A stretch of DNA of 34,755 nucleotides, taken from the IMG/VR virus record IMGVR_UViG_3300025873_000018, positions 1 through 34,755 of that record; one strand, 5' to 3'. Under the pieces are notes generated by a model. That model saw only the letters and a program-made list of their open reading frames with translations, searched no databases and was not told the DNA's origin. A program made the translations under genes and the position numbers. Shown one piece after another: positions 2,737-34,278 of this stretch. How positions within the stretch are numbered: position 1 is the stretch's first letter; each line of letters begins with the position of its first letter. This stretch comes from a virus.

Positions 2737-3214
2737 AGAAACCTTTTTGAGCTAGACGCGGCTTAATCATTAAGCCTCCTTTATATTTCTTTGAAGACCA
2801 AGTAGGTCGACCTGGAATCTTTTCTGGTAATTTACCCTTCGGGTTAATGGTTCCTTTAACTCTAAATTTTTGCACAGGATGCGCACGTTCCATACTAGCT
2901 ATTTTATGATAGGATTCCCAGTTGGCTTTGTTAGCCTTAGGATTATTAAAATAAGCTCGGGCTTTTAGTTCTTTTTTCCATCCTATCCTTTTTCTAGCAA
3001 GAGCTTTTGCTTTATAAATAGGATCCTTTTCCTTTAATTTACGCTTAACAAATCGAGCTTTAAGTCTTTTATAATATCCTGCACGATCTAAAAATTTTTC
3101 TTTAACTTTTCCCTTTAATTCACGATAGCCTTTAGCAAGATGTTTTTTTACTCCTGATGGCGTGTTAGACCATGCTAACTTGGCTGCTTTCGTTATAAAA
3201 TATCGTGTAACCAT
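2723..3214 (-). CDS. Highly basic protein of unknown function
   Basis: 163 residues, unusually rich in lysine and arginine (for example FVKRKLKEKDPIYKAKALAR around 55-74), with no recognisable catalytic motif or membrane segment. The C-terminus contains YKGGLMIKPRLAQKGF, a glycine-glycine tail of the kind that recurs on small basic proteins of marine phages and elsewhere in this window. It begins 10 bases after the stop of the 1268-aa protein. Its position at the end of the internal-virion-protein cassette suggests a small DNA-associated virion protein, but that is inference. Confidence 0.6.
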   Translation of the reverse strand: MVTRYFITKAAKLAWSNTPSGVKKHLAKGYRELKGKVKEKFLDRAGYYKRLKARFVKRKLKEKDPIYKAKALARKRIGWKKELKARAYFNNPKANKANWESYHKIASMERAHPVQKFRVKGTINPKGKLPEKIPGRPTWSSKKYKGGLMIKPRLAQKGFYAQD

Positions 3215-3223
3215 TAGGTCTTG

Positions 3224-6200
3224 TTAGGCATTATAGGTTGGTCTTCCCGGAACTTTAAGGGTTGGTTTTGAAGATTGACTCTCTGCGATAGCAGCTCCTA
3301 AGTTATCGCCTGGAAATAAATTTCTATAGGTGTTGGGTCGTTGCACGGTATTCGCAGTCTGTGGTCTTTGAACCGGATTAATAGTTTGATTAGCCGTCGG
3401 AGGATCTTGAATAAAATTTTTCAAATTTGTATCTTGTGCTAAGAGTTTTGCACCCGCAGGAGAATCTAATTGTTCCAACAAGGTATCTCTTTTTTTACCA
3501 ATGTTCATCCCTTCCACTGCTGCAGATATATCTTGGAGTTCCTGGGGTGGTAATTTTCTAATGGTAGTTAGATCAGGATCAAATAGTTCTTTAACCGCTT
3601 GAGGTTGTTCATCATAGAGCATGGCTCCATTAGTTTCATGGACTGGAGCCTCTAATAAATATTTAATAATTCTCTCATCCGTAATATTATCCGGTGTGAC
3701 GTAAGGGGCATCCGGATCTCCACCAAAAGCATAATTTAAAAAATCTGCTAGTCTATCTCTTCTTGGGGGAGCATCTACCGGTCTTCTTAAAGACCCTCCA
3801 ACCATATTCATATAACGTCTTTCCATTTCAGGATAAGTGTTAGTCCAATATTTTAAGACCGCAGGAGAATTTACCATTCGTGTAGAGTATTTTAAACCTC
3901 CCCATAAAAACATTGTACCCATAAGACCGCCTCCTACTCCTCCTAATGCTACTCCCATCCCTCCAGTTGCAACCCCAATCATGATTGCTCTAGACAACCA
4001 AGTAGAAGGACTTCCGATAGGAGCTTCGTGTGATCTTCGTAATTGATTTATAAATGTATTAACTACTTCTAAATGTTCTTTAGGGTTTTTTACTCCCATA
4101 CTTTTAAACATTTGTAACATTGATTTTTTTCCCGCAGGGGTATTTAGACCCAGCATTTTTTCATAGGTATCAAAATCAAAACGTTCAAAATTAGAAAATT
4201 TATGGACGTTATTTTTATAAGTTTGTGTAGCTGCTTTGGCCGCCATGACTAATTTTTCTTCGCCATCTAATAAATTAGTGAGTGCTTTTTCTTCCGAGGC
4301 ACTTAGTTTTTGAGACAGCCCTATCACTCCCTTAGGATTTCGTCTCCAAGCTTCTTTAATACTGATTACGGTTTCCGGAGTTCCTGTGAAGTCGGGACGT
4401 CTTGCCTTTTGAAGAACAGGATCCGTAAATCCTTTCCCTTCAAAAGCCATTAATCTTAATTTTTCTAAATTTTTAGGCACCTCTGGAGCAACCCATTTAC
4501 CTCCCACCTTTGTGGCAGCTAAAGGCATTGTTAATCTACTTTCCAAAGCTTTCTCATAAAGCATTAAATACTTAGGTCTGAGAGCATATCGAATGGTTCT
4601 CATATCATCGAGATCCGTTGTTCGTCCCGTAATCCCCATACTATTTTGTATAACCTCTGCCGTCTCTTCATAATGCTTACGATAGCTAGCAGAGTTTTCC
4701 ATCAAATGTTTATTTATTTCGCGCACGCTTTTGGATTGTTCCTCAAAGAGTGGACGATAGGTTGGTGTTCCCATGACTTCGGCTACCTTAACCGATTGCA
4801 TTGCAGCATCAGTAAAACGTCTTCTATTGATCATTCGCATTAAGAATTTTCCTTCGGCGATCATTTGATTAACCTCTACATTATTGGCTCTTGCAAACGC
4901 TAGGAGCTGAGGATTTACTTCGGCTCCAATGTATTTTGCAAACTGCGTAATTACTTCAGGATCAGGCACATCTTTTATAAAAATGGTATCCGTCATTTCT
5001 TTAAAAGCTTTATTGGAATTTACTGTATGTTGATTAAAACCCCCGAGTATAGATTTTTGAGTTGCAATATCATAACCTAAAGCGTTTCTATATTTTTGAA
5101 GTTGATCATTTCTTAAACTTGCAGGCGCATACTTATTCATCATAGAAGAATAAGATAGGTTTGCTAGTTCATGTTTTTGTTTAACGGCAGTATAACCTTT
5201 CATAAGTTTATCCACAAAAGCATCCCCTAATTCTTTTGGAGTTTTTACAATGGTGCCATCTAGCAACCGGATTTGTCCTTCGGCGGTAAGCCGTTTCGCT
5301 ACTCCAGGATCGTTTATAAGGAAATTATAAAATTGTGCTACTTTTGGGTTCTTACTCGTCATCGCACCTGTTTTAGGATCCGGGTACATCTTCAACATGT
5401 CATCTCGGTTACCGGTTAATGCTAACATATCCATTTCATATTTTTTCATAAATTCTCGGATGGATTGGGCATCACTGTATTTACCTAGCGTTCCTCCCCC
5501 TTTGGCTTTTAATGCTTGGCTATAAGCTTTAGTAAATTCTTCTCTTAAGTCTTTGAGTTGACTATAAGTAATATAGTCTCCTTGACCCAAGGCTTCTTTC
5601 CATTCTTTTATATAAACATCCAGTTGATTAGCATGTCTTAACATGGCTGGACTTACGCTACTGATAGTGTCAAAACCTCTTTCAGCTAAAATTTTAGCCG
5701 CCTCTCCAGGAGCAGCTCCTGCCGCAAGAATCGCATCTTTATAGTCTGTAATCCCTCGGACTGGAAATATAGGAACCTCCATGGTTCCTTTCATGGTATC
5801 TACCACAGGTATCCTGCTACTATGTTTGTGAAACTCTGTAAATAAATTACTAATATTCTTATACTCGTCATCAATCTGACTATACAGTCTATTGATCAGT
5901 TTATTTTCAAATTTATAGACTTGAGTCATTTGAACTCCCGCAGTTGTGGCTAACTCCCCAGCTCCATAAAGAGGGGCCAACGTGTCAGTCGCTCCTGTCA
6001 GTCCAGCCACTCCTCCACCAATAACTTTTTTTCTAAATTTGCCTGTTTCTAAAGCAGACCCGGGTAATACTCCAAGACTTCCTCCATGTCCTGCTAGGGC
6101 TTGTGACACCCCTGGTTCTTTTGCAGAACTAATAGTTGCTCCATACTCTCCACCAGCGTTAATAGTTTTTACATTTTCTTGAAACTTGAGATTTTTTGGA

Positions 6201-7031: not shown

Positions 7032-9284
7032 TTATTGAATACTCTCTAAAATTTTTTCATAATTTAAAACATCTTGTGGAGTTTCACCGGCTCTTCCCTC
7101 TAACTCTTTCTTTCTCTGATAGTTTCTTCTGACTATCGGAATACTTTGATAGTTAGAATAAACAAAAGAAGCTGAGCCTCCTCCAATGTTTACATAGGCT
7201 TTCGCATTACGAACAAAGTGTGTGTTCATGTCTTGTTCAATGATTTTATAGTTGTCCTGAACTCTTCGTGGGTTAGTCCAATATTTAATAATTTTAGTAT
7301 TACGTTCGGCAATTTCAATATCTTTAATTGTTAATCGATCTTCGGGTTTATAGGTATTGGCTACTAAGTAAGCCATTCTATTTTCAATATAGCCTAGTCG
7401 TGCTAAGGCTAATCGTTTTTCATCTCCAACATCGAGTGCTTTGTCATAAGTTTTCTTTAATTTTTCTTCTTTTGCAATGAATTCGGTAACTAGTTGATCG
7501 GCTTCTTTAGCTCGATCATCAAGTTCGTCTTGCGTAAGACCTTCCTCATCCCCCATAACGTTTGCTCTAGAATCATCTATAATTTTATTATAGGTTTCAA
7601 TACTTTGAATATCTCCTCCATCAAAATAACCTCCTACGGCACTTAAAGCACCGGACAAATTATCTTGAAACTGAACGATAGAAGCATTAGGACCTAGTAC
7701 CGCTGGGCTCGCTGCTCGCACAAAACGTGCCATTTGAATTCCAATTGCAGCATTTTGCATACTCGCATTATAAGTGGCTTGTCGTTTGGTATCAGGTTTA
7801 ACAGCGGTTCCTTCTCCTTCAAAGTAAGAAAAGCCTTCTCCTCCTTGGCCTGGAGTAATGGTAACTCTTCGTCCACTCTCATCATCGATACCTACTTCAA
7901 GGGTATCGGCTCCTAAGAAATCGTCTGTTTTAACTCTGACGTATTGTCGTTCCGGTAAAATATTCATACCCCCTGCACCTTCAAGCTGAGCTTCCATCAG
8001 TAAGTTTTCTCTTTCTTGCATGTTTTTAATTACCGCCATCGCTAACGTGTTATCATATTCTTTTTGTTGACTACCTAAAGCAATTGCCGTATCAACGGTT
8101 GGCCCCATTGCCTGACCCGCCACATCCATTAATCCTGCTAGTCCTGACTTAGTAGACTTCCCACTCATTAAGCCGGATGCCATTTTTAATAAAAGTAAAT
8201 TGGCGTTATCTCCTCCTCCTGTTACAGAGGTAATGGCGCCTTTAAGATCTGCAAATTCTCTAGCTATTTCTTTTCCTCTTGCCGATAAAGTAAATTTTGT
8301 TACTTCGTGATCAGCTGATTTTTTAGCATTCATAATTGCTTTTCCTTTAGCAACTTGTTCGCCAGGTTGTAAAGCTTCTACTGGAATAGTTGCTTCGTCA
8401 ACAACATTAGCAGGGGCAATACTTTCAGTTTCTCCTTGAATGTTTTGTGGAGCATCCCCTTCCGTTACTACTTCTCCCTCTACGAGGGGAGCTACTTCCG
8501 AGCCTTGCATAATACTAACTGTCTCTTCAACTTTATCCTGTAATCCTAAAGCAGCATAAGCTCTAAGTTTTTGTTCATTAGTAAAGTTAAAAGATTCTAC
8601 TAATTGAATTCTATCTTCTATGGTGGAACTATCCCCACCAATCTCTTTAAATTTTTCCTGAAATTTTTTTAAAATATCAGGGGTGAGTCTATACTTTTCT
8701 TCATCTTTAATTTCTTGGTAAGCTCCTTTTTCTATCATTGAAGAAGCTCCTAATCCTACAGGTATTAAAAAAGGTGCGGGTCCTTTAGCTAATTTACCTG
8801 CGACTTTAGCACTGGTAGCAGTGGCTGCAATTTTTGGAAAAGCTCTTGGAAAAGTTCTGCCTCCAAAGACAGCACCGGGATACATCATTGCTAGGGCTCC
8901 TGTATAAGTAGCGGGTCCGCTTCCTATTAAGGATTCTTTATCCATAGCAGCGCGTCTCCCTTCTTCAGCACCGGCCCCAACACCTGCCGCTTCTAAACCT
9001 AATAAACCTTTTTGAGCACCGGGTTTGGCCATAAATCTTTTACCCGCTTCATAAGTTGGTTTTGCACCTTGAACAGCTCGTTGAAATCCCATAGGAGTTC
9101 CCGTTGCAGCTCTTGCAGCTCGAATTCCTCTCATCGTTCTATAGCCTTTCATGGCTGAGGTGCCTAAACGTGCGCCCCACCCAATAGCTGAGCCTAAAAA
9201 ATATTGAGGAATGTTGCCTGTTTCTATTTGTTTTTGGTGAAGGGCCTTTTGTCGGAATAATGGTCGGAGTAATGCTTTGTCCAT
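7032..9284 (-). CDS. Large internal virion protein candidate (T7 gp15-like position)
   Basis: A 750-residue protein beginning MDKALLRPLFRQKALHQ. The N-terminal ~200 residues are Ala/Gly-rich with short hydrophobic stretches. The middle is acidic, and the C-terminal half is helical and charged (residues about 560-700), ending in a basic region. The frame also contains an ATG at 9338, but those extra 18 codons overlap the preceding gene, so the ATG at 9282-9284, just after that gene's stop, is preferred. The two genes on either side are only 1-4 bases away. Length and order match T7 gp15 (747 aa), which forms part of the ejection conduit; this is synteny-based inference, not a visible domain match. 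Confidence 0.6.
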   Translation of the reverse strand: MDKALLRPLFRQKALHQKQIETGNIPQYFLGSAIGWGARLGTSAMKGYRTMRGIRAARAATGTPMGFQRAVQGAKPTYEAGKRFMAKPGAQKGLLGLEAAGVGAGAEEGRRAAMDKESLIGSGPATYTGALAMMYPGAVFGGRTFPRAFPKIAATATSAKVAGKLAKGPAPFLIPVGLGASSMIEKGAYQEIKDEEKYRLTPDILKKFQEKFKEIGGDSSTIEDRIQLVESFNFTNEQKLRAYAALGLQDKVEETVSIMQGSEVAPLVEGEVVTEGDAPQNIQGETESIAPANVVDEATIPVEALQPGEQVAKGKAIMNAKKSADHEVTKFTLSARGKEIAREFADLKGAITSVTGGGDNANLLLLKMASGLMSGKSTKSGLAGLMDVAGQAMGPTVDTAIALGSQQKEYDNTLAMAVIKNMQERENLLMEAQLEGAGGMNILPERQYVRVKTDDFLGADTLEVGIDDESGRRVTITPGQGGEGFSYFEGEGTAVKPDTKRQATYNASMQNAAIGIQMARFVRAASPAVLGPNASIVQFQDNLSGALSAVGGYFDGGDIQSIETYNKIIDDSRANVMGDEEGLTQDELDDRAKEADQLVTEFIAKEEKLKKTYDKALDVGDEKRLALARLGYIENRMAYLVANTYKPEDRLTIKDIEIAERNTKIIKYWTNPRRVQDNYKIIEQDMNTHFVRNAKAYVNIGGGSASFVYSNYQSIPIVRRNYQRKKELEGRAGETPQDVLNYEKILESIQ

Positions 9285-11633: not shown

Positions 11634-12503
11634 TTAAGTTGTGGGATAGAATTTTTTAATAGGTTTAGATGGAGGTTTTTTAGGATCAATTTTACTCAGC
11701 TCATCTAAGAGACGCCCTCGATAAATAGACTCTCCAATATGATCAATTGATTCGTCTACTAGGGCATGAATTTTTCCACCCATACTGGTCCATAACTTAC
11801 AGAAATAAAAATCTTCTCCTAAATAAGTTTTATCTTTGTTACTCCAATAAGTATCGAAGAAGTTATAATAATTAGGTTTGTCTACTAGTTTACCATTAAT
11901 CATAGTTTTTTGTTTAATAGTTAATTCCGGGTATTCTTTAACTAATTTTTCCAAAGCACTTCGTTTAATCATCATACAGCCCGCAGGTCCTTTATTAATT
12001 TCTAAAAATCCCTCTTTAATAGTAATATGTTCTAAATTAGGAATCTCCACTGGAAAAATATGACCCAATGATTCAAGATCAGCATCCGGCCGTTTCTTAT
12101 AATCATGTACAAACTTCTCTCGATACGTAGTTTTCATAGGGTAAGGGACACAAGATACCTCATAAGGAGAAGCAAACATTCGATAAATAGACCGTGGGCT
12201 AAAAGCAATATCGGAATCAATAAAACACATGTGAGTTGCTTTACTACTTAAGAAAGCAGATACACAAAGATTTCTTCCTTGAGTTACTAAACTACTTTTC
12301 ATAATTTGAAAAGTAATACTAGTATGATTTAATAAACATTCTTTTTGGAGGTCCAAACAAGATTTCATATAATGTAAAGAAACTTCAGAATGAACGGGCG
12401 TCGCTATAAATAAAGAATCATTTTTCTTTATTTTAGCAACGTCTTCGATTCGTTGTCTTTGGGTATTCTCAAGTCTCTTTTTTTGGTCTGCGTCTAAACT
12501 CAC
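11634..12503 (-). CDS. GT-A fold glycosyltransferase (Anp1-like, DSD motif)
   Basis: 289 residues with the order of a nucleotide-sugar dependent GT-A enzyme: strand LFIATPVHSE (31-40), helix SLHYMKSCLDL, a TQGRNLCVSAFL segment (74-85), the metal-binding FIDSDI with DSD at 96-98, then VPYPMK, a GPAGCMMIKRSALEKL acceptor-side block and a late GEDFYFCKLW (ED in a GxDF-type motif). This form is common in large phages and resembles Anp1/GT62-type transferases. The substrate is unknown. The start is GTG at 12501-12503 with AGGAGC 7 bases upstream; it overlaps the next GT gene by 35 bases, so the two are almost certainly co-translated. Confidence 0.82.
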   Translation of the reverse strand: MSLDADQKKRLENTQRQRIEDVAKIKKNDSLFIATPVHSEVSLHYMKSCLDLQKECLLNHTSITFQIMKSSLVTQGRNLCVSAFLSSKATHMCFIDSDIAFSPRSIYRMFASPYEVSCVPYPMKTTYREKFVHDYKKRPDADLESLGHIFPVEIPNLEHITIKEGFLEINKGPAGCMMIKRSALEKLVKEYPELTIKQKTMINGKLVDKPNYYNFFDTYWSNKDKTYLGEDFYFCKLWTSMGGKIHALVDESIDHIGESIYRGRLLDELSKIDPKKPPSKPIKKFYPTT

Positions 12504-13425
12504 TAATTGCTCCTATTAAAAATCGTTGCCAAAATTGACCAACATGTTTCCAGTCATAGTATCTTTTATAAAATTCAACTTGAAATTGCAAGGCCTCAGT
12601 TAAATTTTGTTTAAGAAGAGTGGCTTTAAGGTCTTTAAGGGTATCCCGAAATTGTTCTTTTAATTTATTTTTATCCGTTGTGTAAGGAACATAGATTGGA
12701 AATTCAGTACACGTTTCCGGTAAAGCCCCGAGATCCGTGGTGATTACAAGCAGCCCCGCAGCTAAAGATTCCATTGCACTAATACAAAAAGTTTCTTCCC
12801 ATGTTGAGGGGTGTACACTTAAATCATAGAGGGGTAGAAGCTTAAGAAGTTCTTTATGGGAGACATATCCTTTATAATTTACATGGGGTAAAGCATCAGC
12901 TTTTTTATATAAGGCTGTAAAATTACTATCATTTTGTTGCTTAAAACTATCTCCATAAATTTGGGTGCTTGAATAAACATCGAGCTCAAAATCTGGATCC
13001 TTGAGCTCTTCCATCACGTTTAATAGGACATCGAGTCCTCGCCACGGAGTAGAAAAATAAATTAATTTAATAGGTGCTGTAAAAGTAAACTTAGTTTTGG
13101 GAGTGAGCTCTTTATAATCAATAGCGTTTTTAATGACTGTGCAGCGATTGGTAGGAATGTTAAAAAAATAGCGATACTTTTCATAATTCCAATGTGAATT
13201 AAAAACATACCATTGGTATTTTTTATGATTGTCTTTGTTCTTAAACCAGGGAGCTACATTAGGTTGATCGTAAGAATTTTTAATCCACAGAATATTGGGG
13301 CGAATAGGATGAAGGGGTTCTTTTTCAGGAATAGAGGTTGTAATTTGAACTTCGTCAAAAAACATATTCGGAACATATTTTCTTAAGTAATCAAATTGAA
13401 TTTCAGTTCCACCATAAGGTTGCAT
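12469..13425 (-). CDS. GT-B fold glycosyltransferase, family 4-like
   Basis: 318 residues. The N-terminal domain starts with PYGGTEIQ (3-10), the usual donor-side glycine loop of GT4 enzymes. The C-terminal Rossmann domain begins near IKLIYFSTPWRGLDVLL (119-135), and the diagnostic E-x7-E is in EETFCISAMES (E211, E219) followed by LAAGLLVITTDLGALPE. It would transfer a sugar from a nucleotide donor to an unknown acceptor such as a virion protein, phage DNA or a host glycan. It overlaps the previous small gene by a TAATG and the next GT by 35 bases. No membrane segment or signal is present, so it acts in the cytoplasm. Confidence 0.85.
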   Translation of the reverse strand: MQPYGGTEIQFDYLRKYVPNMFFDEVQITTSIPEKEPLHPIRPNILWIKNSYDQPNVAPWFKNKDNHKKYQWYVFNSHWNYEKYRYFFNIPTNRCTVIKNAIDYKELTPKTKFTFTAPIKLIYFSTPWRGLDVLLNVMEELKDPDFELDVYSSTQIYGDSFKQQNDSNFTALYKKADALPHVNYKGYVSHKELLKLLPLYDLSVHPSTWEETFCISAMESLAAGLLVITTDLGALPETCTEFPIYVPYTTDKNKLKEQFRDTLKDLKATLLKQNLTEALQFQVEFYKRYYDWKHVGQFWQRFLIGAISEFRRRPKKET

Positions 13426-16216: not shown

Positions 16217-16849
16217 TCATTTTATCACTTTGTACGATTGGAAGTAAGAAGGGAGACCTAAAAAGGGTCGTTTATCAAACATATTATTTACTGCCTCTTT
16301 CGAAGAAGCATCGTTATAATGCAAAAAAACTTGAGCACAATTGTCTCCTGTAAAGGGTTCTCTCCAATGTTCCAATTCACAACCCCTATACATTAACATA
16401 TCTCCAGGCCTTAAATCTACTTTAGTGCCTTTTTGATTTTCTTTTCCTGTTGGTTCTAAATAAATGGGCCAGGACTCTCCTCCGAGATTTAGAGTGGTTG
16501 ACACCTCACATGAAAACCGATCTTTATGCCGTTTAAGGATATCTCCTTTTTTATAGATTCGAACATAAGAATAAGTTTCAAATAATTTAAGGCCTGATTG
16601 CTCTTCCATTAAAGGTTTAAGACCTTCTAAAAGAGTTTCCATTAAAGGATCAGCATAATGAGACCAGGTATTAGGAATTTGTTTATCGGCCCAACTTCCC
16701 CATTCTGTACAGTAAGGAGAAATATAATGCTCATCAAAAAGAAAACGAGCAATTTTTCTTTTATTTAAAAGATAACGATAAGCAAGATCAGCAACGTCTT
16801 TAGTTAAGACGCCGGGTAAAACTTTATAATGATCATTATTAAAACTCAT
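16217..16849 (-). CDS. 2-oxoglutarate/Fe(II)-dependent oxygenase A
   Basis: 210-residue double-stranded beta-helix enzyme. The iron triad is H108 and D110 (KRHKDR) and H161 (ELEHWRE), numbered from the chosen start. Supporting features are FETYSYVRIYKKGD before the HxD and LRPGDMLMYRG before the distal histidine. Such enzymes hydroxylate proline, lysine, asparagine or nucleic acid bases using O2 and 2-oxoglutarate. The usual 2OG-binding Arg/Lys about ten residues after the distal His is not obvious (CAQVFLHY there); R163 might serve. I chose the ATG at 16847-16849, which makes an ATGA overlap with oxygenase B; an in-frame ATG at 16873 would add 8 residues and extend the overlap. Confidence 0.85.
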   Translation of the reverse strand: MSFNNDHYKVLPGVLTKDVADLAYRYLLNKRKIARFLFDEHYISPYCTEWGSWADKQIPNTWSHYADPLMETLLEGLKPLMEEQSGLKLFETYSYVRIYKKGDILKRHKDRFSCEVSTTLNLGGESWPIYLEPTGKENQKGTKVDLRPGDMLMYRGCELEHWREPFTGDNCAQVFLHYNDASSKEAVNNMFDKRPFLGLPSYFQSYKVIK

Positions 16850-17481
16850 TGAAAAGGCCATCCTAAATTCCACACCACTAAACTATGACGAGTCCCTTGA
16901 GTAACGGGTCTTACGCGGTGCCATACAAAACTAGGAAAAACAACCAATGATCCTTTTTCACTTATTTCTGTACATTTGGTAATATTAGGTTGTTTACTAT
17001 CTGAATTTCTAAAATCAAATTCTAACTCACCCCCTTTAAAATTTTTACTCTCTGATAATAAAAGAGTCATAGAAAGTTTTCGGCGCTTCTTATGGTAGTT
17101 GGGCCAATGGGGTTTATTATAAGGGAGCGAAGAGTCATCGCAGTGCCATGTGTAATGTTGCCGTTTAGAATAGCTTGTAAACTGACAAGCTTCGGTAAAA
17201 TCCCATTGAAAATTCCAACCGGCATTTCGATTGGCTTCATGAATATAGGGTTGAATTTCTTTATAAATCCAGGGGTCACTCATCCATACTATATGTGAAT
17301 CCCTGGTTTTTTTCAAATCTTTATATTCCCCTTGAGTAAGGGGGGCTTTATTTAGATCTCTGTGATATTTAAAAGTAGAAGCAATTTGTTTTTTTTGTGC
17401 TAATCCATACTTAAGAATATCATCACAAATATGTTGTGGGATGACTTTTTGAAACCACCAATAATAATGAGTAAGATTCAT
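16846..17481 (-). CDS. 2-oxoglutarate/Fe(II)-dependent oxygenase B, PKHD type
   Basis: 211 residues with a complete site: H113 and D115 in WHCDDS, H188 in FVWHRVRP and R198 in TRHSLVVW, exactly ten residues after the distal His as expected for 2-oxoglutarate binding. GGELEFDF (150-157) and KGSLVVFPSF (177-186) are the conserved strands of PKHD-type hydroxylases. Oxygenase A follows with a 4-base overlap, so the pair is co-translated, but the two share little sequence. Substrate unknown; a virion protein made from the adjacent fibre genes is possible. The start has no Shine-Dalgarno and follows a 108-base gap containing a repeat element and an inverted repeat. Confidence 0.88.
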   Translation of the reverse strand: MNLTHYYWWFQKVIPQHICDDILKYGLAQKKQIASTFKYHRDLNKAPLTQGEYKDLKKTRDSHIVWMSDPWIYKEIQPYIHEANRNAGWNFQWDFTEACQFTSYSKRQHYTWHCDDSSLPYNKPHWPNYHKKRRKLSMTLLLSESKNFKGGELEFDFRNSDSKQPNITKCTEISEKGSLVVFPSFVWHRVRPVTQGTRHSLVVWNLGWPFQ

Positions 17482-26081: not shown

Positions 26082-26249
26082 TTACACTTTGTGTTGTTTC
26101 AGCCTTTTTCGGTTGTACAACTTCTTTGAGTTTATCACTTTGGCTCGGTACAGTCTAGATTCAAGCAGTTTTCCATAGGGATCACGCTTCCAATTTCGAC
26201 CTAAACCAGGCTCTAATTCTTTAGGGATTTGAGATCTTGTAATAGCCAT
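26082..26249 (-). CDS. 55-aa basic protein sharing its N-terminus with the major capsid protein
   Basis: ATG at 26247-26249 overlaps the stop of the endolysin (TAATG); TAA at 26082-26084. It begins MAITRSQIPKELEPGLGRNW, goes on KRDPYGKLLESRLYRAKVIN and ends in a basic tail KKLYNRKRLKQHKV. The first 16 residues match 13 of 16 in the major capsid protein (MAISRSQLVKELEPGL). 'RSQIxKxL' heads recur on many marine phage small proteins. Role unknown; interaction with a shared partner is possible. Confidence 0.7.
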   Translation of the reverse strand: MAITRSQIPKELEPGLGRNWKRDPYGKLLESRLYRAKVINSKKLYNRKRLKQHKV

Positions 26250-26746
26250 TATTTTACATACCTGTCTGTGCTTAAACCCATAATAGGTTTATAAGATGTT
26301 TTTCCGGTTTCAGGATTTTTAATCGCCATTAAATATTCTTTTCTATTACTATTAATTTCTTTTTTATATGACACATGCACCCATCCCGAGTTGGGCTGTC
26401 CCGGTGTGTAGTATTCGAGAATCAATTGATCAAACATCAAATTTTCTTTGATCCAGTCACTGACCTCATTATTGGGTGTTCCAAAAATTTCGAAGTCCGC
26501 CGCTTCTCCAGCGCAATGCTGACTCGTCTTACTACTGCCGATCTTGGCTGACAAAATTTCGTTCCGATAGCCCGACGAAATCGTAACAACATGATTAAAA
26601 TGATCTCGAACGGGTTGCAAGACTCTTTCGCAGAGAATCCTAAGATTTTCCGTTTCATCCTCATTAGGATTATTATCTAATCCCATACGTTCTGCTGTTT
26701 GAGATTTTGTGAGTTCAGCTAAGCTGAAATTTTTAGAAAGTTGCAT
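26249..26746 (-). CDS. Peptidase M15-type endolysin (zinc D-Ala endopeptidase-like)
   Basis: 165 residues. Zinc site: H77 and D84 in SQHCAGEAAD (SxHxxGxAxD motif) and H124 in GWVHVS; R61 of SSGYR and E111 of LILEYY are the other usual active-site residues. All family hallmarks of M15 (VanY/peptidase_M15_3) are present and the length is normal for phage enzymes. It would cut peptide bridges of host peptidoglycan at lysis. No signal peptide or TM, so it needs a holin to cross the membrane. Upstream are two membrane/anchored proteins (69 and 135 aa) that fit lysis partners. Its stop overlaps the 55-aa gene. Confidence 0.9.
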   Translation of the reverse strand: MQLSKNFSLAELTKSQTAERMGLDNNPNEDETENLRILCERVLQPVRDHFNHVVTISSGYRNEILSAKIGSSKTSQHCAGEAADFEIFGTPNNEVSDWIKENLMFDQLILEYYTPGQPNSGWVHVSYKKEINSNRKEYLMAIKNPETGKTSYKPIMGLSTDRYVK

Positions 26747-26756
26747 TTAGCTGTTT

Positions 26757-26966
26757 TTATTTAAGTATAATTTTCGTAATATATTTTGAGCCATCTTTAT
26801 TTATTTTTACTTCAGCCTGAGTTTTAATACATTTATATTGTACCGTATCTGAATAAGTTCTTTCAGCCTCACGTTTTCCGCGAAGGCATACCCCCATCGA
26901 GGGTTGGATACGGTGTTCCTTAATTTCAAAATTTACGAACATAAGGAGGGCTATAACTGTTTCCAT
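26757..26966 (-). CDS. Small N-terminally anchored protein of the lysis cluster
   Basis: 69 residues with a short hydrophobic start (METVIALLMFVNFEI), then VCLRGKREAER (26-36), a second Cys in VQYKCIKTQAEVK and a final KINKDGSKYITKIIL strand. I recall similar short proteins with a conserved C-x-x-G-K-R-x-A-E-R element beside M15 endolysins in marine phages. The two cysteines and an N-terminal anchor suggest the periplasmic side of the membrane. Possibly a spanin-like or regulatory partner of the endolysin; not proven. It overlaps the 135-aa gene by one base. Confidence 0.65.
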   Translation of the reverse strand: METVIALLMFVNFEIKEHRIQPSMGVCLRGKREAERTYSDTVQYKCIKTQAEVKINKDGSKYITKIILK

Positions 26967-27373
26967 TAGTGTTGATTCCCATTAGAAAAAGTTCTTTGTT
27001 TATCTTTGAGCTTTTCAATATCAGATTGAACTTTATTCATTTGTTTAGTTAAAAAATCTATGTTTACCTTATTGTGCAGTCCATCCTCGATAGCTTTTTG
27101 GAGACGATCAACGGACTTGTAAAGATCCTCGATCATCATAAATTGTTCCTGGTCCGCCGGAAGCGCCCCTAGCATACCCCGAGGCCACTTTATTCTGAAC
27201 TCAGTATTCATCTCTAAATCTTTATTCATAATTTCAAATTGAGTTGTGATACGATTTTGGGTCTCAATGATACCGAAGTAAGCCCAGGTTCCAATTGAAA
27301 CCAGGGCGATCAAAGAGGCAACCGTCTTCATCGGCATTTGAACTTTTGCTTCGTCTGAAATCTTGAGTGTCAT
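26966..27373 (-). CDS. Membrane protein with coiled coil, holin/spanin-like
   Basis: 135 residues: a conserved head LKISDEAKVQMPMKTVASLI, one TM helix (about 17-36, ending TWAYFGI), a block FRIKWPRG (59-66) then LPADQEQFMMIEDL, and a coiled coil from about 83 to 126. This pattern is very common in marine phage genomes beside M15 endolysins. N-in membrane anchor plus periplasmic coiled coil is the plan of an inner-membrane spanin, though holin is also quoted for similar proteins. It lies 1 base after the 229-aa gene's stop and shares one base with the next gene. Confidence 0.68.
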   Translation of the reverse strand: MTLKISDEAKVQMPMKTVASLIALVSIGTWAYFGIIETQNRITTQFEIMNKDLEMNTEFRIKWPRGMLGALPADQEQFMMIEDLYKSVDRLQKAIEDGLHNKVNIDFLTKQMNKVQSDIEKLKDKQRTFSNGNQH

Positions 27374-27374
27374 A

Positions 27375-28064
27375 CTATTTTTTGCTTATTATACCCCATG
27401 CATTAGGGGGTGTTGAAGAGGATGGTTCGTCTTTTATTTCATAAAACATTCGGTCAGAATCTTCCGTGACCCATGTATTATTTTCGACGTTCCATTCGGA
27501 TGTTTGGACCTTGTAGTCAGGCCAGGTGTTTCCTTTAACTGTGAAATTACCGACACTCCACAAGATACGGTTGTTAGGTTGGATGGCAAAATTACCATTT
27601 TGTAAGCTGAGGACGTGACCACACTTGTGCTCAGCGACAACTTCAGAATGATCGCAATCAAGAATGTTGGCATCAGGATGAGCCCAATCGATTGTGAATA
27701 AATATTCTCCCTGATAAAATTTTTTGTCTTTGCCTAAAAATTTGCATGATTGGCTGCCTAAGAAATCATAAGTAGTAACACTAGGAAAGTAACTAAAAGA
27801 ATTCCATAGCTCCAACTCATCAAGTCGCATCCTAGGAACTTGTGATATATCATATGATTTTTGAATGAACGCGGAGATAGGAAGGCGATAGAAGATTGCA
27901 CCCGTTTCCAGCATGCAATGAAAAAGGACTGCCCGACCTGTGATCGAAGCCAGTCCAAAAATAACGCAATCCTCAACTTCCCCGTGGTGATCTTTAAGAT
28001 CATAAAGATATTCTTTACGAATTTGAGCGTAAATAATAGGAATGTTGGCATTTAGATAACTCAT
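27375..28064 (-). CDS. Conserved marine phage protein of unknown function
   Basis: 229 residues starting MSYLNANIPIIYAQIRKEYL. Recognisable blocks are EYLYDLKDHHGEVEDCVIFG (18-37), FHCMLETGAIFYRLPISAF, LDELELWNSFSYFPSVT, YLFTIDWAHPD and EHKCGHVLSLQNGNFAIQPN. The sequence family is highly conserved among uncultured marine phages and lies next to the lysis/structural genes, but I know no function. Conserved His/Cys/Asp clusters (DHH, EHKCGH) could bind metal, yet they are not a known catalytic motif. No TM or signal. The long conservation suggests an enzyme or a virion baseplate-like part. Confidence 0.7.
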   Translation of the reverse strand: MSYLNANIPIIYAQIRKEYLYDLKDHHGEVEDCVIFGLASITGRAVLFHCMLETGAIFYRLPISAFIQKSYDISQVPRMRLDELELWNSFSYFPSVTTYDFLGSQSCKFLGKDKKFYQGEYLFTIDWAHPDANILDCDHSEVVAEHKCGHVLSLQNGNFAIQPNNRILWSVGNFTVKGNTWPDYKVQTSEWNVENNTWVTEDSDRMFYEIKDEPSSSTPPNAWGIISKK

Positions 28065-28092: not shown

Positions 28093-28254
28093 TTAATTAC
28101 AGTTATTTTTATCTAAATCAATAGGTTTATCGCTACCATAAAACCATACCCATGACGAAATCTTAGTTCCATCTTGTGTATAGGTACATTTTTTGCCTAC
28201 CGAGCAGGCGCTCAAAGCAAAAAGTAGTGCTAATACTAAATAAAACTTATTCAC
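28093..28254 (-). CDS. 53-aa lipoprotein
   Basis: The start is GTG at 28252-28254, which forms a GTGA overlap with the Cys-rich gene and has GAGG 7 bases upstream; the ATG at 28260 is an alternative that adds two residues. The product begins MNKFYLVLALLFALSAC, a classic type II signal with lipobox LSAC (C17). A mature part of 37 residues follows, including KKCTYTQDGTKISSWVWFYG and ending DKNNCN, with two further cysteines. It would be anchored in the outer or inner membrane. Candidates are an outer-membrane spanin (Rz1-like, usually Pro-rich, which this is not) or a superinfection-exclusion lipoprotein. Confidence 0.72.
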   Translation of the reverse strand: MNKFYLVLALLFALSACSVGKKCTYTQDGTKISSWVWFYGSDKPIDLDKNNCN

Positions 28255-28388
28255 TGGCATACCTCACAATCATTAGTGTCATCTATTACCACACCTTTAG
28301 TTTCTTTACAATCGCAATTGTGACATTTACAGTCTACACATTGCTTATCGCAACCGCAATCACATGTACACCCCTTACATTCACTCAT
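28251..28388 (-). CDS. 12-cysteine metallothionein-like peptide
   Basis: 45 residues, ATG at 28386-28388, TGA at 28251-28253. It starts MSECKGCTCDCGCDKQCVDC, continues KCHNCDCKETKGV, and ends NDCEVCQ. Cysteines at 4, 7, 9, 11, 13, 17, 20, 22, 25, 27, 41 and 44 give CxxC and CxC series as in metallothioneins, plus H23. No aromatic residue is present, as typical of those proteins. It would bind soft metal ions (Zn, Cu, Cd), a role inferred from pattern only. It lies between a one-TM peptide and a lipoprotein and is linked to the latter by a 4-base overlap. A reduced disulfide-type or zinc-ribbon fold is the alternative. Confidence 0.75.
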   Translation of the reverse strand: MSECKGCTCDCGCDKQCVDCKCHNCDCKETKGVVIDDTNDCEVCQ

Positions 28389-28389
28389 A

Positions 28390-28494
28390 TTATAATGCCG
28401 CAATAACTAATATAACAATTACTACCGCTGCGCCAATCACAATTTTTCTGTGATCTTTCCATAAAGTTTTGGCAGCCTCTATAATCATTTCCAT
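28390..28494 (-). CDS. 34-aa single-TM peptide
   Basis: ATG at 28492-28494 with AAGGAGG 4-5 bases upstream, TAA at 28390-28392. It begins MEMIIEAAKTLWKDHRKIVI and ends GAAVVIVILVIAAL: a short amphipathic head with basic residues (KDHRK) then a TM helix to the C-terminus. Similar mini-proteins ('I-x-x-AKTLWKDHxK-x-V' plus TM) lie near lysis genes of marine phages. A small holin-like or pinholin-like peptide is possible. It ends one base before the Cys-rich gene. Confidence 0.72.
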   Translation of the reverse strand: MEMIIEAAKTLWKDHRKIVIGAAVVIVILVIAAL

Positions 28495-28874: not shown

Positions 28875-29798
28875 TTACACACCAGGTGATGCGAAAATTC
28901 CTCTAGGGTCGGACCAGCCGAAGCTGTATCTTTCTCTAGCTTTGAATCTCACGTTACCAGTGTCGAAATCTCCCTCGATTGCTGTCTTAATTGGAGCTCT
29001 AAGGAAATGTTTCAATCCATTAGGTGCATCCGTAATTAAGAAGAAAGCATCAGTGTCTGCTAGGTAGTGATTCACAAAGAAACCTTGTGGAACCATACCC
29101 ATATTTAACATTGCATTGATGTCATTCTTAGCATAACCAGCACTAGTCGCAGTTGTAGATAAAGGTGATCTTAAAATTCTCTCAGCTGTAAATTGTAATT
29201 CTTTTGGAATTATCATTCTTACACCTTGAAGAGCGATTTTTAATCCTCTTTCGTCCACGAACCCTGCAATATCTATTAATGCTTGTTCAAGTGAAGTTTC
29301 CGCCAAATCTGCTGCAGTTGATAATTGGTTTCTGAATGTACCGCCAGTAGCTAACGGGTGAGAAACGTTACATAAAGAAACGCCGTCTCCTCCAGTTGGT
29401 CCACCAGTAAATGCATTGTTCAGAACATATGCCGCTTTAACTTGCTTAGTATGCGCCATAGATCTTGCTAATGCTCTAGTATATCTTGCTGCCAATCTGT
29501 CGTACAGATTATCTTCGATCGCCTCTTCAGTGATAGCAAAAGCGAGAGCAATAGTCTCGTTAGTGTATCTAGCTGTGTAGACTTCTTTAGCGTCATCGTA
29601 ATTTACCATCGCACCTTTAGTTTTTACTGCTGCTGCACCAAATCCTGAAAGCATGACTTCTTCCTCAAACGCTCTGTCCGAAGTTTCTGTAGCAAATATC
29701 ATTGCTGCTTCATTGTCGTATCTGTTGTATTCCAGGCCAAATAAAGCATTCAAACCTGGCTCTAGTTCTTTAACTAGTTGTGATCGTGATATAGCCAT
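28875..29798 (-). CDS. HK97-fold major capsid protein
   Basis: 307 residues. Typical composition and blocks of HK97-type capsid proteins in marine podoviruses: MAISRSQLVKELEPGLNALF head, YDDAKEVYTARYTNETIALA (E-loop/P-domain strands), FAITEEAIEDNLYDRLAARY (spine helix), RSMAHTKQVKAAYVLNNAF, then SHPLATGG and IIPKELQFTAERILRSPL, and a C-terminal FDTGNVRFKARERYSFGWSDPRGIF. All A- and P-domain elements are present, so it is full-length. No prohead protease gene is visible nearby. RBS AGAGGAGA is strong, fitting high expression, and neighbours (191-, 162-, 341- and 96-aa genes) form the head module. It shares its N-terminal 16 residues with the 55-aa protein at 26082-26249. Confidence 0.9.
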   Translation of the reverse strand: MAISRSQLVKELEPGLNALFGLEYNRYDNEAAMIFATETSDRAFEEEVMLSGFGAAAVKTKGAMVNYDDAKEVYTARYTNETIALAFAITEEAIEDNLYDRLAARYTRALARSMAHTKQVKAAYVLNNAFTGGPTGGDGVSLCNVSHPLATGGTFRNQLSTAADLAETSLEQALIDIAGFVDERGLKIALQGVRMIIPKELQFTAERILRSPLSTTATSAGYAKNDINAMLNMGMVPQGFFVNHYLADTDAFFLITDAPNGLKHFLRAPIKTAIEGDFDTGNVRFKARERYSFGWSDPRGIFASPGV

Positions 29799-32399: not shown

Positions 32400-32592
32400 C
32401 AATATTCTCCTTTTGCAGGTTTTTAAAGTCCTGAAGCAATGCTTCATAAGCATTGAGTCGACCTCTAGAATACTGTAATTTCTCCAGTGTGTCTACACCC
32501 TGGCAAATGTGATCTTTGACAGCTTCAATTTCTTTTTGGATATGAACCTTTAATGTTTCAACAGTAAAAGGATCTAAATTTAAATCAGCCAT
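32377..32592 (-). CDS. Small helical phage protein
   Basis: 71 residues, nearly all helical: LDPFTVETLKVHIQKEIEAV (6-25), then KDHICQGVDTLEKLQYSRGR and LNAYEALLQDFKNLQKE. The pattern 'LDPxTVxxLKxxIxxEIExVKDHICxGxDTLEKLQYxRGRLxAYxxLLQDxKxL' is a small conserved protein in marine phages, normally beside the co-chaperonin/terminase region. Its start overlaps the glycosyltransferase by 13 bases and its end overlaps the co-chaperonin by 23. A terminase-small-subunit-like or chaperone-adaptor role is possible, not shown. Confidence 0.7.
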   Translation of the reverse strand: MADLNLDPFTVETLKVHIQKEIEAVKDHICQGVDTLEKLQYSRGRLNAYEALLQDFKNLQKENIDGDADTT

Positions 32593-33344
32593 GGAAAGTT
32601 CCCGTCCGGATATTTTTTATCCATATACTCCTTACCTTTTAAATACCATCGTTTTGCGTGTTCTAATTGTTCTTTTTTACCTCGTCCTAGTCTAAAATTC
32701 AAGGTATACTGTTTGGTACATTTAAAATTAGGATATTTACTAGCTAAATTGTCAAATAATACTTTATCCGTTCTTTGCTTTAATATTCGGGTTAGGTGCC
32801 ACAGAGGAGCTAGCCATATGAGTTTATCTTTAGGACAAATGAAAGATTGACCATCCACAAAATAATAATCTTGTCCTGTTTGGTGTTTAACTTCATCACT
32901 ATTCCATACTGGATGTAAACCAATAGATTCAAACGTATCTTTACAAATTAGTTTTTTTTCAGGATCCCAAATCCGTCTTAAACTAAAAACCCAATCCGCT
33001 TTGGTTTCTTCAAACGTTTTTAAAACTACTTCACAATGATTCGGTTCCAACCAGTCACCACTACCCAAGACTTGAAAATAATCATAATTAATTAAGTGAA
33101 CAAAACCTGAAATTAAAGGTTCCGGTCTTCCGTGCGTCACCCGTTCTTGGATATGATAGTGAAGGGTATTTTTAGGTTTATAATACTCTAATACTTTTTT
33201 AACAATGGTATTACCTTCAGGAGTATCGGTAACAAGAGTGTGTTTAAAATTAGGCACCGTCTGATTTTGAACACTTTTAATAGTGTCTACTAAAAGCTCT
33301 TCTCCAAGCGTTGGAGTGAAAAAATTGATAACCGGTTCAGACAT
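32580..33344 (-). CDS. GT-A fold glycosyltransferase, family 2-like
   Basis: 254 residues: donor strand NFFTPTLGEE (7-16), helix LLVDTIKSVQNQTV, strand KHTLVTDTPEG, middle region ending QVLGSGDWLEP (91-101), where GSGDW takes the place of the usual DxD/DD motif. Then come helix CEVVLKTFEETKADWVFSL and an acceptor side with WHLTRILKQRTDK. Family 2 transferases use this layout; the SGD in place of DxD is a small deviation but common. Acceptor unknown. It overlaps the arginase-like gene by 8 bases and the 71-aa gene by 13, so it is part of a coupled trio. Confidence 0.78.
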   Translation of the reverse strand: MSEPVINFFTPTLGEELLVDTIKSVQNQTVPNFKHTLVTDTPEGNTIVKKVLEYYKPKNTLHYHIQERVTHGRPEPLISGFVHLINYDYFQVLGSGDWLEPNHCEVVLKTFEETKADWVFSLRRIWDPEKKLICKDTFESIGLHPVWNSDEVKHQTGQDYYFVDGQSFICPKDKLIWLAPLWHLTRILKQRTDKVLFDNLASKYPNFKCTKQYTLNFRLGRGKKEQLEHAKRWYLKGKEYMDKKYPDGNFPWLI

Positions 33345-33888: not shown

Positions 33889-34278
33889 TTATTTCTTGCC
33901 GCCGTTCCTGAAGATCTGAGTTCCCTTAATGCCAAAAACGCTGGCTACGACTAAAATCCACAAATTTGTAAACCATTTTGGCAGGTTCGAGAAATGCTCA
34001 AAGAAGATGTTTATCTTTTCCATAGCGCCCGGATCATTCGACCAAACCCCATATGCGAGCACAATTATTGGGAGCGTTAAAATGCAAAGGACGATTTCGT
34101 CCTTATAATCGTTTTGCCGGGCTTCTAAAAGTTTGCCCTGGTAAGATTCTTCACCGGAGGCCATCTTTTGTGCGTGCATCAATTGTGCATCCGACATTGC
34201 CATCTTTGTTCTTTGACGATTAGCGTATATCTTACTACCTGCTTGTAATGCGATTTTTGCTAATCCGAACCAAGCCAT
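33889..34278 (-). CDS. Holin-like protein with two TM helices
   Basis: 129 residues: an amphipathic N-terminal part (1-20), a charged linker rich in Gln/Ala/Glu (about 28-55), TM1 (61-79, EIVLCILTLPIIVLAYGVW), a loop with FFEHFSNLPKWF (92-103), TM2 (104-120, TNLWILVVASVFGIKGT) and a short basic end. 'WKDEIxxxxLxxPxIxxF...LPxWxxxxxxxxVxxxFGIKG' matches a family of phage holins common in marine podoviruses. It would permit the M15 endolysin to cross the membrane. The TAATG overlap couples it to the 133-aa gene. Its separation from the endolysin by 7 kb is not unusual in these phages. Confidence 0.72.
   Translation of the reverse strand: MAWFGLAKIALQAGSKIYANRQRTKMAMSDAQLMHAQKMASGEESYQGKLLEARQNDYKDEIVLCILTLPIIVLAYGVWSNDPGAMEKINIFFEHFSNLPKWFTNLWILVVASVFGIKGTQIFRNGGKK

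Follow-up and report, generated by a model that had tools for sequence, protein, structure and literature searches.

A family of small cysteine-rich phage proteins with a predicted zinc cluster, encoded near membrane and lysis genes

The window, that is, the whole stretch of viral DNA analysed here (34,755 nucleotides), carries on its minus strand a short gene for a cysteine-rich peptide, hereafter CYS, which lies between the capsid gene and the lysis genes, as an earlier sequence-only reading had placed it. The features of this region, all on the same strand, are the following:

28875-29798, minus strand: major capsid protein, with 76% identity to its counterpart in Pelagibacter phage HTVC023P
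28499-28505, minus strand: strong AAGGAGG ribosome-binding site, serving the membrane peptide and CYS as a pair
28390-28494, minus strand: 34-aa tail-anchored membrane peptide of the TM33 type, translationally coupled to CYS
28251-28388, minus strand: CYS, 45 aa plus stop; short-linker member of a phage family of putative zinc-cluster proteins
28093-28254, minus strand: LIPO53, 53-aa lipoprotein with a weak match to the lipoprotein attachment site; its GTG start overlaps the CYS stop
27375-28064, minus strand: "PurM-like" protein, phrog_3704, for which the labels "ferredoxin" and PurM are doubtful
26966-27373, minus strand: c6, membrane-anchored coiled-coil protein, phrog_20984, spanin-like by layout only
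26757-26966, minus strand: c8, small protein with a hydrophobic N-terminus and two Cys, phrog_24646
26249-26746, minus strand: M15 peptidase endolysin (Pfam PF08291, 7.7e-18; phrog_894 endolysin, 4.6e-42)

Regarding the gene itself, translation of 28251-28388 on the minus strand, which the sequence-only reading had left unnamed, gives MSECKGCTCDCGCDKQCVDCKCHNCDCKETKGVVIDDTNDCEVCQ followed by a stop; the product of 45 aa has the 12 Cys (residues 4, 7, 9, 11, 13, 17, 20, 22, 25, 27, 41 and 44), the single His (residue 23) and the lack of aromatic residues reported before. The spacing of the genes also agreed with that reading: the ATG of CYS stands one base after the end of the membrane peptide gene, and its TGA is overlapped in a GTGA by the GTG of LIPO53, whose relatives start with MNK at the same codon. 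The 34-aa peptide upstream has an amphipathic start, a Trp and a C-terminal hydrophobic helix.

The frame is small, and it was left unannotated in two deposited phage records (a Chosvirus and HTVC041P), two points that would suit a chance or non-coding frame; this reading, which had also been rejected beforehand, is refuted by the homologues of CYS and has practically no probability left. In 200 first-order Markov shuffles of the window, ORFs of 30-100 aa starting with M never had more than nine Cys and the family motif was absent from all of them, while the second most Cys-rich ORF of this kind in the window has four; purifying selection across the family and the operon overlaps with the neighbouring genes point the same way. 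Owing to its shortness, CYS often goes unannotated.

As for the phage, the capsid protein is also 68% identical to that of HTVC027P, and the gene set from the scaffold to the M15 endolysin is similar to that of HTVC023P-type pelagiphages; judged by this kinship, the host is very probably SAR11. The phrog_3704 protein of the window had no Pfam family match at E ≤ 1, and the labels "ferredoxin" and "PurM" of the proteins in this group look wrong; in HTVC008M and Mosig, phrog_3704 genes lie between ribonucleotide reductase subunits.

A tblastn search with the window peptide gave zero matches in 50,697 phage records because the peptide is too short and divergent; the way into the family was instead through short frames rich in Cys that occupy the corresponding position in contigs related by capsid-gene synteny, and further relatives were found with the sequences of these first ones. 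The first viral scan required Cys or His at residue 9 and the second left this residue free, while a DNA pattern for the short-linker type matched low-complexity frames for the most part, and manual sorting of its hits yielded seven genuine further members besides the window and HTVC023P. The family comprises at least 155 distinct genes with intact frames and kept Cys spacing (the conservation on which the sequence-only reading had staked its proposal), coding for at least 153 distinct proteins in IMG/VR contigs and in the pelagiphages HTVC023P, Gjalp (gp42), Eyrgjafa (gp29), HTVC041P and a Chosvirus. Among these genes the median member has 50 aa and 10 Cys, and the window peptide is the most Cys-rich of those listed and the only one with 12; the family profile matched it with an E of 9.6e-7, the window being among the members from which the profile was built.

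No match for the family occurred in Pfam, PHROGs, NCBIfam, PADLOC or the PDB sequences. A cellular origin was rejected: only one of 84,980 species genomes was positive, and the hit lay on a phage contig within a Pelagibacteraceae single-cell genome, which was again the only one among 197 genomes of the host family. CYS therefore appears to be an undescribed family restricted to viruses, of which the window peptide is a divergent member. Two loci have two CYS genes, L308 and L286, where they are in tandem (2986-3372, reverse strand numbering) and the first is fused to a TM33-like membrane tail. In HTVC023P (L082, about 7060-7179) an unannotated short-linker frame lies directly after PurM; it has AAT where L286 and L221 have ATG, and the motif's first Cys is not closely preceded by any ATG, GTG or TTG, so that a non-canonical start, a frameshift or decay may be involved.

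In the numbering of the long-linker members, the family core is C4-x2-C7-x-[C/H]9-x-C11-H12-C13-x5-H19-[S/A]-D-x-Y-G-x-C25-x-C27-x2-C30-x-[C/H]32, or CxxCx[C/H]xCHCx5H[S/A]DxYGxCxCxxCx[C/H], with 11 ligands, about nine Cys and two His; seven of the Cys are invariant among the at least 153 proteins. Residue 12 is His in all the 153 distinct proteins listed with the sole exception of the window, which has Gly, and a C-terminal ECxxC[QS] is found in 92 of the 155 members listed (about 60%). The short-linker branch, with the window, HTVC023P, L275, L280, L180, L183, L220, L221 and L286, has lost the HxDxYG loop and has Cys17 in place of the linker His19.

The two variable ligand positions are the most informative. 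Residue 9 is Cys in 90 and His in 63 of the 153 proteins listed, with no other residue; since the first scan had demanded Cys or His there, the count was repeated on 71 cores from the second scan, again with no third residue (45 His, 26 Cys). A tree built without this column requires at least 15 switches between the two residues, a number to be read with the weakness of a tree from a short alignment; residue 32 is Cys or His except for three Asn among the at least 153 proteins, with at least nine changes on the tree. Codons for Cys (TGY) and His (CAY) are two bases apart, and a single base change would turn Cys into any of several other amino acids; an exclusive exchange at this cost suggests selection for a metal ligand and not for a disulphide, and is strong sequence-level evidence for metal coordination. 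Purifying selection is evident in a dN/dS of 0.11 for the family (51 independent close pairs); the near-zero values at the ligand columns derive in part from the way members were found, a bias that does not affect the 0.18 at the non-ligand columns.

With the conserved ligand spacing as further support, zinc binding is thus very probable; the conserved His suggest Zn in preference to Cu(I), and in the metallothioneins of bacteria and plants, too, His is a common residue. AlphaFold models made without metal had low confidence (pLDDT 57.5 and 63.9), and Foldseek found no match for them in the PDB; this would be expected for a peptide folded by its metal, and it is not proof of it.

The metallothionein pattern proposed by the sequence-only reading held in part. 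CYS has the traits of a metallothionein in the broad sense, being small and very rich in Cys in CxC and CxxC series, and it resembles the bacterial SmtA/BmtA proteins (PF02069) in size, Cys share, a CxCxxCxC segment and a set of about nine Cys and two His; the ligand number and the restriction of residue 9 to Cys or His also fit. The order of the Cys motifs differs from that of SmtA/BmtA, and CYS is confined to phages and linked to membrane and lysis genes. The PF02069 profile matched none of five phage records at E ≤ 10, with the Synechococcus elongatus control passing, and none of the 197 SAR11 host-family genomes; hhalign of the family against SmtA (PDB 1jjd) gave a probability of 2.8% over 12 columns. 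The profile search suggested by the same reading was therefore negative for metallothioneins and positive, by way of the relatives' sequences, in viral metagenome contigs. The lack of aromatic residues is not a trait of the family: the window peptide has none, and 134 of the 155 members listed have at least one. Overall, the chemistry may be metallothionein-like, and a recognisable metallothionein is not supported. The ligand set of SmtA is Zn4Cys9His2 (PMC10119931), equal in number to the eleven ligands of the core, a likeness that is suggestive only. Our survey of the open literature, with most subscription papers outside its scope, found no relevant report of phage metallothioneins.

Small phage zinc ribbons and zinc-finger mini-proteins, represented in the comparison by a 75-aa CxxC protein encoded in the CYS loci, HTVC027P gp12 and the Lar family, are also short, with CxxC/CxC ligands and putative adaptor-type roles; however, they have about four ligands, whereas CYS has about 11 in 30 residues together with the conserved HxDxYG loop. 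The gp12 protein (L405, 3641-3799; CEFCGHKISHHVHEGINKCAHCDC) takes the place of CYS after PurM and is a different, zinc-site-like protein of 52 aa; its tail, WWKKIISWL, is amphipathic, and its match to the Lar family is faint (E 0.003, below the cut-off).

As for the gene neighbourhood, the usual order in the 86 loci of the first sets is DNA polymerase A, a 33-aa membrane peptide, the PurM-like gene (phrog_3704) and CYS, followed by a second small Cys peptide, a 53-aa lipoprotein and membrane coiled-coil proteins. The cassette comes after DNA polymerase A more often than after an endolysin, so that expression in the middle period is possible; the capsid gene precedes the set in the window and in L002, L031, L101 and L102, while in the autographivirus pelagiphages CYS stands just before the capsid gene, with an obvious lysis set only in the Chosvirus. 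Gjalp gp42 and Eyrgjafa gp29, hypothetical proteins both encoded before a capsid gene, are long-linker members with HSDKYG and with an FWK tail instead of ECxxCQ. The PurM-like gene is the commonest close neighbour, within 6 kb of CYS in 93 of the 155 loci listed; at the same distance, one or more genes of the membrane cassette or for an endolysin or holin occur in 115 of them, and an endolysin or holin in a minority of 19, a raw count over contigs that are mostly partial.

Adjacency to holin or endolysin genes is clear in L275, L183, L220 and L031, and in the window these genes are near. L275 and L183 have a textbook lysis setting of the type of the phrog_3427/GTA_holin_3TM cassettes, with CYS directly after the holin: the order is phage lysozyme (PF00959, 1.2e-8), a 37-aa membrane peptide (TM37), GTA_holin_3TM (PF11351, 2e-10; phrog_3427) and CYS in L275, and membrane peptide, holin and CYS in L183. 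Unlike the holins of such cassettes, CYS is predicted to be soluble and, by its ligands, to bind metal; no counterpart of it was found among the lysis cassettes described in the open literature. In L220 the order is M15, CYS and a peptide that shares WNKRWNKKNG with the peptide before CYS in the Chosvirus.

TM33-related peptides are found near CYS in many loci; being short and hydrophobic, they allow only a weak test of kinship from one phage group to another. A single 79-aa frame in L286 joins the CYS domain to a TM33-like tail, the only clear membrane fusion found, and five members carry amphipathic Trp/Leu helices at one end. The last codons of CYS overlap the start of the next gene both in L173 and in the window.

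Taken together, these data suggest that CYS is a cytosolic zinc-cluster protein associated with the inner membrane, which belongs to a membrane/lysis cassette and has a role in phage exit; this is a tentative reading, to which we assign a probability of roughly 45%, and its functional part is weakly inferred. In such a model, about eleven conserved Cys/His side chains would hold two to four Zn2+ and so fold a chain that is otherwise floppy; a short operon would supply the protein along with a tail-anchored membrane peptide, with lipoproteins and with further proteins destined for the envelope. It would act, presumably late, on the cytosolic side of the host inner membrane, as the metal-folded partner of the membrane peptide. 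The pair may then serve the exit programme, either lysis or takeover of the envelope. The neighbourhood favours this role at least as much as the altered host metal or redox balance that had been proposed.

The main rival, a zinc buffer akin to metallothioneins, appears doubtful. CYS would soak up the Zn2+ released from degraded host zinc proteins and ribosomes, or store it for zinc enzymes of the phage, among them the M15 endolysin, and so keep free zinc harmless in a host that lacks a metallothionein of its own. The share of Cys in the window peptide (12 of 45 residues), the ligand set equal in number to that of SmtA and the lack of PF02069 matches in the host-family genomes agree with it, as does the M15 endolysin of the phage, M15 being a family of zinc enzymes; yet there is no sequence kinship to metallothioneins, and conservation extends to the non-ligand loop H[SA]DxYG, as would rather be expected of a binding surface or of a protein with a defined fold. 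Delivery of zinc to M15 as a general job is weakened by L275, where CYS is paired with a lysozyme of PF00959, a family that needs no zinc. Buffering of zinc and an exit role at the inner membrane are compatible and not exclusive.

Rather unlikely is a zinc-finger-like adaptor for host takeover, which would bind a cytosolic target, possibly RNA polymerase, ribosome or a nuclease of the host, and would have nothing particular to do with membrane or lysis. The conserved charged and loop residues between the ligands, the common position of CYS behind DNA polymerase A and the PurM-like gene, and the presence at this position of HTVC027P gp12, with its sub-threshold match to a restriction-alleviation family, would suit it, but the steady proximity of membrane-protein genes and the fusions of CYS to amphipathic and membrane helices would not. 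A metal-dependent lysis regulator, with the cytosolic zinc cluster docked on a tail-anchored phage peptide or a holin and released late in infection by a change in cellular zinc or thiol state, seems improbable; if it were true, the metal or redox state would set the moment at which SAR11 phages leave the cell. As for a thiol redox protein acting by disulphide exchange like a glutaredoxin, the many CxxC and CxC pairs recall it, and so do two pelagiphage myoviruses, in which relatives of the PurM-like gene adjoin ribonucleotide reductase genes, and a cyanophage in which such a relative neighbours a gene labelled nrdC; the redox reading is nonetheless disfavoured, and very improbable, because His freely replaces Cys at residues 9 and 32 with no other Cys lost, an exchange that disulphides would forbid, and no thioredoxin-type profile matched.

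The kind of protein, a small Cys/His metal cluster, is already known; the family is new to the libraries and the open literature, and the phage membrane/lysis setting is new for such proteins. A conserved, predicted zinc-cluster protein absent from all libraries may be a general phage tool for host zinc or for cell exit, and the cultured carriers Gjalp, Eyrgjafa and HTVC041P make it directly testable.

Finally, some minor observations regard other genes. Directly after CYS, a second small conserved peptide of about 50 aa occurs in about 40 loci (L031, 2381-2533; L173, 6129-6332), with the motif [CT]CxxH[TS]KEKExxGxCCQ, another possible metal site, and with no PHROG, Pfam or PADLOC match. The amphipathic WNKRWNKKNG peptide lies just before CYS in the Chosvirus (L086, 4889-4999) and just after it in L220 (1397-1495), which belong to different phage families; peptides of a similar type are near CYS in eight loci. 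In the window, 33889-34278 (minus strand) codes for a 129-aa phrog_2524 protein with hydrophobic C-terminal segments and no Pfam match, a possible holin; two adjacent proteins of 218 and 211 aa (16217-17481, minus strand) resemble 2-oxoglutarate/iron oxygenases by eye, and the window is rich in glycosyltransferase-like genes (11634-13425 and 32580-33344).
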